64,000 nt of DNA, from the IMG/VR virus record IMGVR_UViG_3300012582_000194, positions 124,001 to 188,000 of that record. One strand, given 5' to 3'. Below are positions 3,633 to 7,940 of the stretch, in pieces. The DNA comes from a virus. Every line of letters begins with the position of its first letter. Position 1 is the stretch's first letter. The notes beneath the pieces are model-generated. The model was not told the DNA's origin, made no database searches, and saw nothing but the letters and a program-made list of their open reading frames with translations. The position numbers and the translations under genes were made by a program.

Positions 3633-4097
3633 ATGAAAGTATTCGGAAAAGAAAGAAATTGTATAATTCATGATGAAAACAAAGTATGTGGATTCTTTGG
3701 TGAATATCGCTTCTTATCTAATTATGATTGGTGCGAAATACATTATGATGGATTAGTGTATTCATCTACTGAGGCTGCTTATCAGGCTGCTAAATCATTA
3801 GATAGAGAAACTCAAATTGAATATACAAGAATGGGTCCATCGGAGTCAAAAAAAATAGCATACAAATTACCTATAAGAGAAGATTGGTATGATATAAGAC
3901 TTGATGTGATGTATGCGGTTATTAAAGATAAATTTACACGACACGAAGAATTGAAAACTAAATTACTTCAGACGGGTGATAAATATTTAGAGGAAACTAA
4001 TTATTGGAAAGATGTTTTTTGGGGTGTGTATGATAGAAAAGGTGAGAACAATTTAGGAAAAATATTAATGCGAGTTAGAGAAGAAATTAAAAAATAG
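3633..4097 (+). CDS. NADAR (YbiA/DUF1768) family protein
   Basis: 154 residues, complete. Family hallmarks are visible: FFGEYRFLSNY near residue 22, STEAAYQAAKS near residue 49, RxDVMYAVIKDKF, and a late FWGVYDRKGENNLGKIL. NADAR proteins hydrolyse N-glycosidic bonds, including those of riboflavin intermediates and ADP-ribosylated guanine in DNA. In a phage it could reverse DarT-type DNA ADP-ribosylation or act in NAD metabolism; which applies is inference. The following two genes lie close downstream. Confidence 0.88.
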   Translation: MKVFGKERNCIIHDENKVCGFFGEYRFLSNYDWCEIHYDGLVYSSTEAAYQAAKSLDRETQIEYTRMGPSESKKIAYKLPIREDWYDIRLDVMYAVIKDKFTRHEELKTKLLQTGDKYLEETNYWKDVFWGVYDRKGENNLGKILMRVREEIKK

Positions 4098-4101
4098 AAT
4101 T

Positions 4102-4362
4102 ATGGATATGTTGACAATCTGTATTGATGAATTAGCTCATTCTGATTATAATGACTACATAGAACAGAATTTATCTTTAGAACAATTAAAAAATCTAACT
4201 AAATTCTTTTTTGGTTGGAAAGGAATTACTTCAGATGAATTGTGGCATATATATAATTCTGATAATAAAGAAATTATCACAAATATACCGCTCATTAAAA
4301 GTTTTATTAAATATTGTAAAAACGAACAAGAAATTGAAAATTTAATTAGAAGTTTAGTGTGA
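4102..4362 (+). CDS. Hypothetical protein
   Basis: 86 residues, acidic, predicted helical, no recognised domain. It begins 4 nt after the NADAR stop and so probably belongs to the same transcript. Confidence 0.6.
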   Translation: MDMLTICIDELAHSDYNDYIEQNLSLEQLKNLTKFFFGWKGITSDELWHIYNSDNKEIITNIPLIKSFIKYCKNEQEIENLIRSLV

Positions 4363-4389
4363 CGGTTTAATAAAAATATTAATGCTAAT

Positions 4390-4671
4390 ATGGAAACTAT
4401 ATTGAATTACATAGTCAATAATCGCATAGTCAATGTTGATGGTTGGTATTATTGCCAGAAAAATTGCATTGTTAGTGAACATTCGGTAGAACTTTATTTT
4501 GAAAATACAAATTCATCACTTGATTATTATATTATGATTAATTTAAGTAAACCATTTAAGTTTTCATTATATAGAGGTGAAAAAATACAGAAGAAAGCAT
4601 TTCAAAAAGCTTTTTATAAAAAGTTACCAAGAAATTTAAAAATTCAAAAATTAGTAGGGGGTAGATTATGA
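4390..4671 (+). CDS. Hypothetical protein
   Basis: 93 residues with a very basic second half (RGEKIQKKAFQKAFYKKL). The stop overlaps the start of the SerRS-arm gene (ATGATAC), indicating translational coupling. No family recognised. Confidence 0.6.
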   Translation: METILNYIVNNRIVNVDGWYYCQKNCIVSEHSVELYFENTNSSLDYYIMINLSKPFKFSLYRGEKIQKKAFQKAFYKKLPRNLKIQKLVGGRL

Positions 4672-5030
4672 TACAAATTGATTTTATCCGAGAAAATAAA
4701 GATATGATAATCGAAGAATTAAATAAAAAACATTTTCGTAATGCAAAAAAATATGTGGAAATAATTTTAGAAACCGATGCTAAGAGAATGTCAATTCAAA
4801 AAGAATTGGACGAATCTATATTAAGAATTAACATGAAATCAAATGAAATTGAAGTTTATTTAAGTAATGGTGAAATAGAGGCAGCAGAGGACATTAAAAA
4901 TAAATCTAATATATTAGGAAAGAAGATTAAAGAATTAATTAAAGAATTGAAAGATGTTGAAGAAAAACTTAATGATAAATTAGTTAAGCTTCCTAATATA
5001 CCGCACACCGATGTTCCTGACATACATTGA
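4668..5030 (+). CDS. Stand-alone seryl-tRNA synthetase tRNA-binding arm
   Basis: 120 residues that correspond to the N-terminal helical arm of bacterial SerRS and nothing more. The start (MIQIDFIRENKDMIIEEL), the KKHF turn, two long antiparallel helices rich in Lys and Glu (about 25-105), and the closing LPNIPHTDVP loop match the family, especially Bacteroidetes SerRS (KKHF, IPNIPH). The frame ends at TGA where the catalytic domain would begin, and no class II motifs follow. In SerRS this arm grips the long variable arm of tRNA-Ser; three tRNA-Ser genes lie 1.6-2.7 kb downstream. Confidence 0.87.
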   Translation: MIQIDFIRENKDMIIEELNKKHFRNAKKYVEIILETDAKRMSIQKELDESILRINMKSNEIEVYLSNGEIEAAEDIKNKSNILGKKIKELIKELKDVEEKLNDKLVKLPNIPHTDVPDIH

Positions 5031-5130
5031 ACGGGAGCGCATTAACACTTTCTATAATTATGCATCTCTTTTAGAAAATAATCAAACAGTTTATGATGTT
5101 AAATTACCATATGCACAGGATTTTATTTAA
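5011..5130 (+). CDS. Very small ORF overlapping the SerRS-arm gene
   Basis: A 39-codon frame starting inside the last codons of the SerRS arm and ending LPYAQDFI. Base composition is normal for the window. It is too short for a family call; real expression is uncertain. Confidence 0.35.
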   Translation: MFLTYIERERINTFYNYASLLENNQTVYDVKLPYAQDFI

Positions 5131-5142
5131 TAAATTAAAAAT

Positions 5143-5316
5143 ATGAAATTATTAAAAGTAGAATTATTATCATTATTAATTTACGTAATTTTAACTCTAC
5201 CCCATCTTAGTTATTTAATATTTGATGTTGGTATACAATATTCATTACCTGTTTGTTTATCGGTTGGTATAGTTTCAGTTATAATTGGTAATATAATAAT
5301 GTTTGATAGGAAATAA
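5143..5316 (+). CDS. Small two-helix membrane protein
   Basis: 57 residues with two hydrophobic segments (about 8-28, LLSLLIYVILTLPHLSYLIF, and 34-53) separated by a short polar turn, ending FDRK. Good ATG after an A-rich leader. Function unknown. Confidence 0.55.
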   Translation: MKLLKVELLSLLIYVILTLPHLSYLIFDVGIQYSLPVCLSVGIVSVIIGNIIMFDRK

Positions 5317-5327
5317 TTGATATAAAA

Positions 5328-5359
5328 TTTGGAAGTTTAATTATTTTTGTATATATTTG
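5328..5359 (+). promoter_or_regulatory. Host-type promoter
   Basis: TTTG (5328-5331), 20 nt, TATATTTG (5352-5359), 16 nt ahead of the ATG at 5376. Confidence 0.75.
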
Positions 5360-5375
5360 TGTTAAAATTAAATTT

Positions 5376-5894
5376 ATGGGATATTCAATTTCACAAGGTA
5401 AAACATCTTTTAAAATTAAAGGTGAAAATATTCAAGGAGCATTAAAAGCTATTAAGGATTTTGCATCGAAGCGAACAAAATTAGGATATTTTGATGCTAA
5501 AAAAATTGCAAATGCTAAAACATTAGACGAAGCGTTTAAAGAACTTTGTTGGAAATTTAAGTACACCGAAGTACAAGAAGATGTTTTAACGCTTGATAAA
5601 GCAAAAGTTATGTTAGAGTCTCTTTATGGAAAAATAAAAAATGAAGGTGCTAGTGAACAATATGCGTTGTCTTGCTTAGATGAAATTATTTCTAAATTTC
5701 CTAAAGATAAAGATGTTATAGGTATCACACAACAAGTCGAATATTTAGGCGAAGAAAGAATAATCTTTAATGTTATTGCACCATTTGTTGAAGAAGGTAG
5801 CTTTATTGAAATTGTGGGTGAGGATGGTGAAACATGGCGTTGGGTTTTTGAAGGTGGTAAGTGTGAAGAAAAGAAACCAAAAATAAAATGGTAA
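5376..5894 (+). CDS. Hypothetical protein under a host-type promoter
   Basis: 172 residues, soluble, no signal peptide. The N-terminal part (about 10-120) is helical and Lys-rich; the last 45 residues form a beta-rich acidic section (FIEIVGEDGETWRWVFEGG). Own promoter with correct spacing, so likely early. I do not recognise the family. Confidence 0.7.
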   Translation: MGYSISQGKTSFKIKGENIQGALKAIKDFASKRTKLGYFDAKKIANAKTLDEAFKELCWKFKYTEVQEDVLTLDKAKVMLESLYGKIKNEGASEQYALSCLDEIISKFPKDKDVIGITQQVEYLGEERIIFNVIAPFVEEGSFIEIVGEDGETWRWVFEGGKCEEKKPKIKW

Positions 5895-6016
5895 TATTTG
5901 TAATTGCGATTCAAGCTGGTAAATGTACAATAGAGAAAAATAAATTCAAAATAAGAAAACAATTTCAAAAAATAAACGTTTACTATAATATAACCCATTA
6001 AGGGAACAAATAAGTT

Positions 6017-6026
6017 TAAATATATA
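6017..6026 (+). promoter_or_regulatory. Late-type box TAAATATATA
   Basis: Variant of the decamer found upstream of packaged-type genes, 5 nt before the ATG at 6032. Confidence 0.4.
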
Positions 6027-6031
6027 CTATT

Positions 6032-6121
6032 ATGAAAGCAATGATTTTAAGTTTATGTCTATCGTTATCGCTAAGTTTGCAAAAACTTGGGGTGGTAGGC
6101 GTATGTAAAGTCATTAGTTAA
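6032..6121 (+). CDS. 29-residue hydrophobic peptide or small RNA
   Basis: ATG to TAA encodes a 29-residue peptide with a hydrophobic Leu/Ser-rich core (LSLCLSLSLSLQ). It is followed within 25 nt by a strong intrinsic terminator, so this is a self-contained transcription unit. The GC-rich stretch near 6090-6102 is unusual here. It could be a membrane-active peptide or a non-coding RNA carrying a chance ORF. Confidence 0.4.
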   Translation: MKAMILSLCLSLSLSLQKLGVVGVCKVIS

Positions 6122-6145
6122 TATAAAAGACTTTAAATATCTTAA

Positions 6146-6175
6146 ACCCTAAGTTCAAAAGACTTAGGGTTTTTT
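6146..6175 (+). terminator. Intrinsic terminator
   Basis: Perfect 9-bp stem ACCCTAAGT / ACTTAGGGT (6146-6154 and 6162-6170) with a 7-nt loop and a T run. Confidence 0.8.
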
Positions 6176-6203
6176 GTTTTATATTAAAAAAATTAATGAA
6201 ATT

Positions 6204-6446
6204 ATGGAAAAGATAATGATTAAAGTTGTGGGTATGTTTAGTAATTGTTATATTCCTAAATATGATATGTATTTTGCTACAAAAACAGAACATGGTAATG
6301 ATGCTATAATTAAAAAAGCAAATGCAATGATAACAGTTTCAAATAATTTTAAAAACATTAATGAAGATTATAAAAGACAATTAGAAAATGAAGATGAAAA
6401 AAATAATGAAACGAAGGCTATATTGGATGGATATAAAGTGATGTAG
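6204..6446 (+). CDS. Hypothetical protein preceding the tRNA cluster
   Basis: 80 residues from the ATG at 6204 (an upstream start would lie in the terminator). The N-terminal half is beta-like; the C-terminal half is a charged helix (NEDYKRQLENEDEKNNETKA). No known family. Confidence 0.55.
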   Translation: MEKIMIKVVGMFSNCYIPKYDMYFATKTEHGNDAIIKKANAMITVSNNFKNINEDYKRQLENEDEKNNETKAILDGYKVM

Positions 6447-6454
6447 TTTTTAAT

Positions 6455-6534
6455 GCTCCCATGGTGGAATGGCAGACACGCTCGGCTTAAAATCGAGTGC
6501 CTTGTGCATACAGGTTCAAGTCCTGTTGGGAGTA
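6455..6534 (+). tRNA. tRNA-Leu(TAA)
   Basis: Acceptor GCTCCCA / TGGGAGT (terminal G-U), anticodon stem-loop CTCGG-CTTAAAA-TCGAG, long variable arm, T loop TTCAAGT. CCA is not encoded. Confidence 0.9.
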
Positions 6535-6547
6535 CTAATTATCACAT

Positions 6548-6633
6548 GCCCTTGTGATGTAATGCAGCCATGAACGCCTTAGAAGCGTTTGCGAAGTAAT
6601 AGTAGCGTGTAGGTTCGAGTCCTACCAAGGGTA
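6548..6633 (+). tRNA. tRNA-Leu(TAG)
   Basis: Acceptor GCCCTTG / CAAGGGT, anticodon arm AACGC-CTTAGAA-GCGTT, long variable arm, T loop TTCGAGT. CCA not encoded. Confidence 0.88.
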
Positions 6634-6642
6634 CACAATAAT

Positions 6643-6731
6643 GGAGGGAATCTGGCTGGATGAAGAGCCAATCTTGAAAATTGGTAAATCGGTGATGAAC
6701 TGGTTTGTGGGTTCGAGTCCCACTTCCTCCT
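6643..6731 (+). tRNA. tRNA-Ser(TGA)
   Basis: Acceptor GGAGGGA / TTCCTCC, anticodon arm CCAAT-CTTGAAA-ATTGG, long variable arm as expected for Ser, T loop TTCGAGT. The apparent discriminator is T rather than the usual G. Confidence 0.88.
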
Positions 6732-6737
6732 CAAAAT

Positions 6738-6810
6738 GGTACTATGGCCGAGTGGATATAGGCGCACGTCTGCAAAACGTGATACATCAGTTCGAACCTG
6801 ATTAGTACCT
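6738..6810 (+). tRNA. tRNA-Cys(GCA)
   Basis: Acceptor GGTACTA / TAGTACC, anticodon arm CACGT-CTGCAAA-ACGTG, short variable loop, T loop TTCGAAC. Confidence 0.88.
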
Positions 6811-6817
6811 CAAAAAT

Positions 6818-6904
6818 GGAGAGTAGGCAAATATTGGTTTGTTGCGGCATCCTGCTAAGATGTTCCGTATAAAAGCGGTGAGGGTTCAATTCCCTTGCTC
6901 TCCT
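6818..6904 (+). tRNA. tRNA-Ser(GCT)
   Basis: Acceptor GGAGAGT with GCTCTCC, anticodon arm GCATC-CTGCTAA-GATGT, long variable arm, T loop TTCAATT. Second of three Ser tRNAs. Confidence 0.85.
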
Positions 6905-6983
6905 CAAATAAAGTTCTATTGTGTAAATATTATCACACTTAAACGTAGCCGAACTTTTTGATATATAATATCAAAAAAAAGCT

Positions 6984-7688
6984 ATGAGTTTAAAAAGTGA
7001 GAAAATATTAAAGTATGCTAAAAAAATTAGAGCGATTGAATTATTAGGTGGTTGTTGCATTGAATGTGGTGTTGATAATATACATAAATTATGTTTTCAC
7101 CATATAAATAGAAATGATAAAAAATTTGATATTTCGGATAAATTAGGATTAAAGTGGAACAAAATAAAAGATGAAGTTATAAAATGTGAGTTATTATGTT
7201 TAAATTGTCATACAGAAAAACATTATAATGAAATTTCTGATAAAAAAGATATAAAAAGAAGGAGTGAAAAAAAACTATTTATTTCAATAAAGGGTGATTC
7301 ATGTGAATATTGTAATTATAATAAGTGTGATGCAACATTAGAATTTCATCATCATAATGATAATAAAAATTTCTCTATAGGGAAAAAAAGATTAACTAAA
7401 AATAATTTATTATTATTTATAGAAGAAATAAACAAGTGTACTTTATTATGTAAAAATTGCCATATTCATTTACATAAAGATAGTTTCTATGATGATAATA
7501 AAGATGAAATAATAAAAAAGAAAAATGATTATATTGATTTAAATAAAATTGATTTAGATAAATTTTTTGAATTATATAATGGTGGGTATAAACAAGTTGA
7601 AATATCAAAACTGTTAAATTGTTCAAAAAGTAGAATCTCAGAATTAGTTTCAAAATATTTTAAAGGGAAGAATACTCAAGTGATTTAA
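6984..7688 (+). CDS. HNH homing endonuclease-like protein inside the tRNA cluster
   Basis: 234 residues. Two tandem zinc-HNH units: CCIECGVDN..LCFHHINRND..LLCLNCHTEKH (about 24-78) and CEYCNYN..LEFHHHND..LLCKNCHIHLH (about 105-160). A C-terminal helix-turn-helix (YKQVEISKLLNCSKSRISEL, about 200-220) would read DNA. This is the layout of free-standing phage homing endonucleases. Its last eight codons overlap the 5' part of the next tRNA, so insertion left no gap. A palindrome (TTTTGATAT / ATATCAAAA) precedes the ATG. Confidence 0.85.
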   Translation: MSLKSEKILKYAKKIRAIELLGGCCIECGVDNIHKLCFHHINRNDKKFDISDKLGLKWNKIKDEVIKCELLCLNCHTEKHYNEISDKKDIKRRSEKKLFISIKGDSCEYCNYNKCDATLEFHHHNDNKNFSIGKKRLTKNNLLLFIEEINKCTLLCKNCHIHLHKDSFYDDNKDEIIKKKNDYIDLNKIDLDKFFELYNGGYKQVEISKLLNCSKSRISELVSKYFKGKNTQVI

Positions 7689-7756
7689 GAGGATACATTG
7701 GAAATGTATTAGATCGGGATTAACCTGGTGCGTGAGTTTGAATCTCACTTCTTCCA
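7666..7756 (+). tRNA. tRNA-Ser(GGA), overlapping the HNH gene
   Basis: Acceptor GGAAGAA / TTCTTCC perfect, D arm CTC/GAG, anticodon arm ATACA-TTGGAAA-TGTAT, long variable arm, T stem GTGAG/CTCAC. The first 23 nt are the end of the HNH coding sequence. Confidence 0.82.
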
Positions 7757-7761
7757 CAAAT

Positions 7762-7835
7762 GGCTTAGTGATGTAATTGGTAAACGTGTTCGGTTCAAAC
7801 CCGAAATTTTATAGGTTCGAGTCCTATCTAAGCTA
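7762..7835 (+). tRNA. tRNA with Leu anticodon CAA and short variable loop
   Basis: Acceptor GGCTTAG / CTAAGCT, D stem ATGT/ACGT, anticodon arm TTCGG-TTCAAAC-CCGAA, T stem ATAGG/CCTAT. The 5-nt variable region is atypical for bacterial tRNA-Leu, so amino-acid identity is uncertain. Confidence 0.75.
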
Positions 7836-7846
7836 CAATAATAAAT

Positions 7847-7921
7847 GCCATTGTGGTGGAATTGGTTATACACACTAGTCTAAGAAACTAGGAATTGCAG
7901 GTTCGACTCCTGTCAATGGTA
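7847..7921 (+). tRNA. tRNA with Leu anticodon AAG and short variable loop
   Basis: Acceptor GCCATTG / CAATGGT, anticodon arm CTAGT-CTAAGAA-ACTAG, T stem GCAGG/CCTGT. The D region (GGTGGAATTGGTTATACAC) is like tRNA-Leu, but the variable loop is only 5 nt and A34 is rare in bacteria. Confidence 0.75.
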
Positions 7922-7940
7922 CTAAAAAATATATATTTAT

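Follow-up and report, generated by a model that had tools for sequence, protein, structure and literature searches.

The stretch of DNA considered here ('the window') comprises bases 124001-188000, a total of 64,000 nucleotides, of the 267,884-bp viral record IMGVR_UViG_3300012582_000194. Its first 25 kb match the 636,363-bp uncultured phage record LR756504.1 at 100%, and over a total overlap of 53,993 bp the two records display zero differences; they may stem from the same sample and are not independent assemblies. Huge uncultured phage genomes of this kind have been described by Al-Shayeb et al. 2020 (PMC7162821). Encoded near the start of the window (4668-5030, plus strand) is a 120-residue protein that corresponds to the N-terminal, tRNA-binding arm of seryl-tRNA synthetase (SerRS), and the only three tRNA-Ser genes that ARAGORN detects in LR756504.1 lie 1.6-2.7 kb downstream of it.

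A complete, isolated arm of seryl-tRNA synthetase

The open reading frame (ORF) at 4668-5030 matches the family PF02403 (Seryl_tRNA_N) over the entire length of its profile (positions 1-108 of 108, E 4.7e-16, 59.4 bits, with a score cut-off of 28.2 bits), and covers positions 1-115 of the 418 positions in the serS model TIGR00414. A phmmer search of the PDB matched the arm to SerRS chains, the best of which was 2dq3 (E 1e-6). An AlphaFold2 model, built with 41 aligned arms, displays the SerRS arm topology and a confident coiled coil (pLDDT 88.7), with helices at residues 4-9, 11-20, 26-66 and 70-107; when the model was compared to the PDB with Foldseek, SerRS chains made up nearly all of the best 30 matches (including 2dq0, with a TMq of 0.87, and 6x94, with a root-mean-square deviation of 1.2 Å). 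A structure search of BFVD returned nothing at E <=0.001. The 120-residue free arm is predicted to fold alone. Its C terminus, LPNIPHTDVPDIH, is the linker that in SerRS leads into the catalytic domain, and the ORF stops right behind this LPNIPHxxVP motif, at the point where the catalytic domain would start. Thus, the region encodes a complete, isolated SerRS N-terminal arm. An earlier note on this DNA, prepared from the letters alone, had read 4668-5030 as just such an arm, ending where catalysis would begin; the full-length family match and the stop codon after the linker bear that description out, as does the comparison of a predicted structure with SerRS that it had proposed as a check.

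A six-frame search for the class II catalytic core (PF00587) gave no match in the 268-kb record that contains the window, the arm ORF included, and in LR756504.1 it identified two genes: a ThrRS without N-terminal domains and a 225-residue GlyRS-like fragment. All control genomes gave a signal, and within the sensitivity of that search LR756504.1 is without a SerRS catalytic domain, whole or broken. The earlier note had allowed that correction of a sequencing error might recover such a domain downstream of the arm; none was recovered from the window's record or, as a SerRS, from the 636-kb phage, and a frameshift or sequencing error that masks the domain is rejected, as a six-frame search detected no SerRS core. 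Of the features that define a SerRS, the N-terminal arm is present, the class II core with its motifs 1-3 is absent, and with that core the domain through which the enzyme forms a homodimer. The hallmarks of a SerRS pseudogene (a broken frame together with traces of the lost part) are also absent, as the break falls exactly at the domain end. Without a catalytic core, serylation of tRNA-Ser by the arm is not expected.

These observations bear directly on the suggestion, also made in the earlier note, that the arm delivers tRNA-Ser to the host SerRS by pairing with a host subunit, or more generally that it is a helper subunit that joins the host enzyme or a truncated synthetase and provides an arm in trans. 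There is a natural precedent for separating the two functions: in insect (fly) mitochondria, tRNA binding and catalysis reside on the separate chains of SLIMP and SerRS2-alpha (PMC10817482), and the LPNIPHxxVP linker has been retained both in the window arm and in a second phage arm (L050, described below). However, SLIMP, a paralogue whose catalytic site is defunct, forms a heterodimer, whereas the phage protein is an arm alone; SerRS dimerises via the catalytic domain that is missing here (PMC10817482); an arm is already part of the host SerRS, and the phage encodes no SerRS that lacks one; and free and host arms would have to use one and the same groove of the tRNA. A helper subunit is scarcely credible on these grounds, and delivery to host SerRS is unlikely and the weakest of the options.

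The gene run around the arm and the tRNA array downstream

The arm closes a run of genes on the same strand that is opened by a NADAR gene, and the run is followed by a terminator-like hairpin:

3633..4097, plus strand: NADAR-domain protein of 154 residues (PF08719, E 3.5e-23)
4390..4671, plus strand: ORF of 93 residues that overlaps the arm start by 4 bases (ATGA)
4656..4661, plus strand: Shine-Dalgarno-like AGGGGG, 6 nt upstream of the arm ATG, read from the sequence
5011..5130, plus strand: 39-codon ORF in the +1 frame that overlaps the arm 3' end, read from the sequence
6144..6172, plus strand: terminator-like hairpin with a 12-pair stem and then a T run, a consensus match only

Family searches with the 93-residue ORF gave nothing significant; because of the four-base ATGA overlap, it and the arm are probably co-translated. 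The 39-codon ORF displays no SerRS similarity, and its last 33 codons gave no Pfam match; its composition is protein-like, and no relative of it was found elsewhere in the genome. The NADAR protein also weakly resembles the NCBIfam anti-phage NADAR model. Since the hairpin stands between the arm gene run and the tRNA array, the arm and the tRNAs probably belong to separate transcripts.

The same neighbourhood bears on the idea that the arm is a recruiter, presenting tRNA-Ser to another protein such as a phage tRNA-modifying or repair enzyme. SerRS itself acts as the tRNA-Ser selection factor for METTL6 (PMC11479938), and a T4-type RNA ligase is encoded by the phage; however, the arm is neither fused to a partner gene nor next to one, its neighbours being the NADAR gene and ORFans, and such a role appears very unlikely.

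The array downstream (tRNA calls by ARAGORN) comprises the following:

6455..6535, plus strand: tRNA-Leu(TAA), class II body
6548..6634, plus strand: tRNA-Leu(TAG), class II body
6641..6730, plus strand: tRNA-Ser(TGA), long variable arm of 22 nt; the acceptor stem pairs from 6643
6738..6811, plus strand: tRNA-Cys(GCA)
6818..6905, plus strand: tRNA-Ser(GCT), long variable arm of 16 nt
6984..7688, plus strand: HNH endonuclease (phrog_2255, E 2.3e-31), between tRNA-Ser genes
7666..7757, plus strand: tRNA-Ser(GGA), long variable arm of 22 nt

The tRNA-Ser genes (TGA, GCT and GGA) had been placed at 6643, 6818 and 7666 in the earlier note, with which ARAGORN agrees (calling the TGA gene from 6641); the Leu and Cys tRNAs of the array had not been listed there. 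The HNH endonuclease gene is a probable homing insert. At 7762-7836 and 7847-7922 are two tRNAs called as Leu (CAA and AAG) with variable loops of 5 nt, that is, with class I bodies, unlike a normal tRNA-Leu.

LR756504.1 as a whole carries 38 tRNAs (ARAGORN) and also encodes MetRS, EF-G, the T4-type RNA ligase and a 378-residue class II synthetase-like ORF among tRNA-Lys genes that is LysRS-like by position and motifs. The ThrRS without N-terminal domains (c134215-135375), the 225-residue GlyRS-like core (c220859-221536) and the LysRS-like ORF (c398.7-399.9 kb) each lie in a cluster with matching tRNAs. Three similar tRNA-like genes (ggccc[g/a]ttcgtcta...; c136122-136197, c402360-402435 and c461088-461164) have anticodon loops of 6 nt, and another (c281045-281120) has an anticodon loop of 8 nt.

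Relatives of the arm and orphan arms in other phages

The best matches of the arm in plasmid records were SerRS of Bacteroides and Parabacteroides, and the best 80 matches in GTDB contigs were all Bacteroidota SerRS (29-38% identity), in a search biased by patterns that were partly derived from Bacteroidales. In a tree of arms, the window arm groups with Bacteroidota (SH-aLRT 85-92), while the order among the phage arms was not resolved. By these comparisons the affinity of the arm appears to be with Bacteroidota SerRS, with whose N-terminal domain it shares the whole PF02403 domain, the helices, the KKHFxNAK signature, the PNIPxxxVP linker and 30-38% identity, aligning with Bacteroides SerRS without gaps over 117 residues. 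It differs in that the phage has no catalytic domain anywhere, and in that its arm tip is acidic where the cellular tip is basic. PF02403 was found in 392 of 396 Bacteroidota genomes, and no intact stand-alone arm occurred among the matches listed for them: these belong to enzyme-length frames, as does every match in the 36 genomes that had two or more, except for short frames that resemble contig breaks and weak coiled-coil hits (for genomes with a single listed match, the survey took in that match and none weaker).

Orphan synthetase arms nonetheless recur in phages, twice for Ser and once for Phe. The second Ser case is found in IMGVR_UViG_3300010167_000014 (L050), which looks unrelated to the window phage and encodes a 150-residue stand-alone SerRS arm (PF02403, E 2.8e-9; model pLDDT 87.7) that stops 23 residues past the VP of its linker; its 146-kb contig has no PF00587 match and no detected tRNA genes. 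The Phe case is found in IMGVR_UViG_3300027749_000039 (L302), at 4256-4501, where an ORF of 81 residues corresponds to the N-terminal coiled coil of PheRS-alpha only (PF02912, E 3.5e-13), overlaps the end of a full-length SerRS gene, and lies 2.8 kb away from tRNA-Phe; no PheRS core (PF01409) was detected in that 190-kb record. The full-length SerRS of L302, a phage with 45 tRNAs, is located ~0.4 kb upstream of tRNA-Ser genes, and its arm is 38% identical to that of the window. This layout is likely to be ancestral, and the window arm probably derives from such a SerRS by loss of the catalytic portion at the end of the arm domain. Like the SerRS of Brevundimonas phages such as vB_BpoS-Domovoi, it is a phage gene that encodes a complete enzyme, in contrast to the arm alone in the window phage. 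As contigs, L050 and L302 may both be fragments, and the IMG/VR pattern scans for arms were non-exhaustive. Matches from Brevundimonas, Listeria, Enterococcus, Staphylococcus and fecal 'phage' records were unsupported as further stand-alone arms (those examined were full-length SerRS, and the rest resembled host DNA), and a PheRS-arm match in a Pseudomonas phage sits beside infC (IF-3) in what looks like a host pheS operon.

Trbp111/CsaA and Arc1p are free synthetase-derived tRNA-binding proteins, in which the binding module has become detached from catalysis; the window arm is likewise such a module without a catalytic part, with L050 and L302 as further cases. The modules of Trbp111/CsaA, Arc1p and DALRD3 differ in being OB-fold or anticodon-binding, and to our knowledge none of the three is a SerRS arm or is phage-encoded. 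DALRD3 embodies the same concept of a synthetase tRNA-binding module separated from catalysis (PMC11479938).

The L050 arm resides in a run of small ORFs on the same strand, such as phage takeover genes typically form, and is not accompanied by a phage tRNA, which would suit an inhibitor that competes with host SerRS for tRNA-Ser (competition was among the roles raised in the earlier note) and thereby slows host translation or shifts the balance of charged tRNAs. On the tRNA, the surface used would indeed be the same for a free arm as for the arm of SerRS (PMC11479938). The window phage, however, itself needs Ser-tRNA, encodes three tRNA-Ser and has no SerRS of its own with which to bypass a block, and inhibition therefore seems improbable.

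Candidate roles of the free arm, and tRNAs with class II bodies

In SerRS complexes, the arm helix lies between the T-arm and the variable arm of the tRNA (PMC11479938), and serine identity rests mainly on the variable arm rather than the anticodon (PMC9976931). The same feature is read by MenT3, which prefers tRNA-Ser on the basis of variable-loop length and orientation (PMC11541572). A free arm that folds alone would bind tRNA-Ser, be it of phage or host, in the groove that the T-arm forms with the long variable arm, as in SerRS, and would act by occupancy, keeping tRNA-Ser from enzymes that read that feature; its most plausible opponents would be enzymes of host defence that recognise tRNA-Ser from how long its variable arm is and how that arm is oriented, and as an outcome serine codons would stay readable during infection. 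Because MenT3 reads the variable-arm surface, a protein that competes for this surface would directly counteract a MenT3-like enzyme; since SerRS does not grip the anticodon, a free arm could mark tRNA-Ser but would not cover the cut site of an anticodon nuclease. We tentatively favour this reading, in which the arm shields or sequesters tRNA-Ser from tRNA-targeting host systems via the variable-arm face, while rating it as somewhat short of probable; it is consistent with the fold, the L050 and L302 cases, the lack of stand-alone arms among those listed in Bacteroidota, the affinity of the arm with Bacteroidota SerRS, the tRNA-Ser genes within 3 kb, the MenT3 precedent and the T4-type RNA ligase. 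Shielding of phage tRNA-Ser, there from cleavage, was also among the roles suggested in the earlier note.

Several observations weigh against shielding. The window arm retains the fold as well as K21, R40, N55, S58, I61, PNIPH and VP, and has lost G62 (to E), K66 (to S; K in 97% of cellular arms) and K69/K70 (to E/I), leaving a net charge at the tip (residues 55-72) of -3, versus +1.4 in 103 cellular arms (standard deviation 0.6, minimum 0) and +2 in both L302 and L050. Because these basic tip residues are lost, its binding of tRNA may be weak or altered. Helix 2 (residues 70-104) is in turn more basic, with a charge of 0 versus -3.5 +/- 1.4 in cells, such that the change is a redistribution of charge rather than a simple loss, and one that neither proves nor excludes tRNA binding. 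No diverged relative of the phage that carries the arm was found: the copies of LR756504.1 are sequence-identical, and a search via a 1248-residue putative tail-sheath protein returned nothing beyond a copy of this phage itself and contigs of 4-20 kb. L050 has no phage tRNA to protect; as its contig is without detected tRNA genes, a phage tRNA is not necessary to the arm idea. Finally, we know of no tRNA-Ser-targeting system in the hosts of these phages.

The lost tip residues would also fit a remnant: a full-length phage SerRS would recently have lost its catalytic part by deletion and left an N-terminal stump that, expressed or not, has no selected role. The full enzyme does occur in the same kind of place in L302, and conservation of the stump is seen in no relative, the available copies being identical. 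Yet the frame ends cleanly at the domain boundary and no frame contains a trace of the catalytic part, the arm start retains its ATGA overlap with the upstream ORF and its Shine-Dalgarno-like motif, and the L050 SerRS arm and L302 PheRS arm are truncated at corresponding positions; a stump devoid of function is accordingly judged rather unlikely.

Resistant tRNAs and RNA repair are known phage responses to tRNA-targeting defence; if shielding of tRNA-Ser is correct, a protein that holds a chosen tRNA would constitute a third way. It is a broader and doubtful proposition that huge phages carry an entire class of synthetase-cut coiled-coil arms, each of which would shield or chaperone a specific tRNA against tRNA-targeting immunity. 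The recurrence of Ser and Phe arms suggests that such a class would be searchable, as short ORFs that encode only a synthetase tRNA-binding arm, and the arm in the window, being small, predicted to fold by itself and provided with a defined candidate ligand, should be easily tested.

Three tRNAs of LR756504.1, tRNA-Thr(TGT) (c134028-134115), tRNA-Asn(GTT) (c134121-134208) and tRNA-Lys(TTT) (c399979-400067), combine class II bodies and variable arms of 17 nt with anticodons that normally go with short ones. They were considered as special ligands of the arm and set aside, because the Lys and Asn tRNAs resemble tRNA-Tyr and also because the L050 contig is without tRNA; the number of unpaired bases after the variable stem (4 in Lys and Asn, 3 in Thr, 1-2 in tRNA-Ser) counts against them as well. 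These same anticodons make up the main set of tRNAs cut by AriB, the PARIS nuclease (PMC12409363). The class II-bodied Thr, Asn and Lys tRNAs stand apart from the story of the arm and may be the more general discovery: many IMG/VR phages (loci L175-L254) have tRNAs of this type, and when IMG/VR was scanned for Asn and Lys tRNAs with class II spacing, at least 132 of 968 ARAGORN tRNAs among the matches listed had a class II body but an anticodon that is not one of Leu, Ser or Tyr. In a post hoc comparison among those matches that left out the tRNAs by which loci had been brought in, and in which artefacts may account for some of the class II calls, class II bodies were found for 14 of 101 tRNAs in the AriB set versus 34 of 628 elsewhere (Fisher P 0.004).

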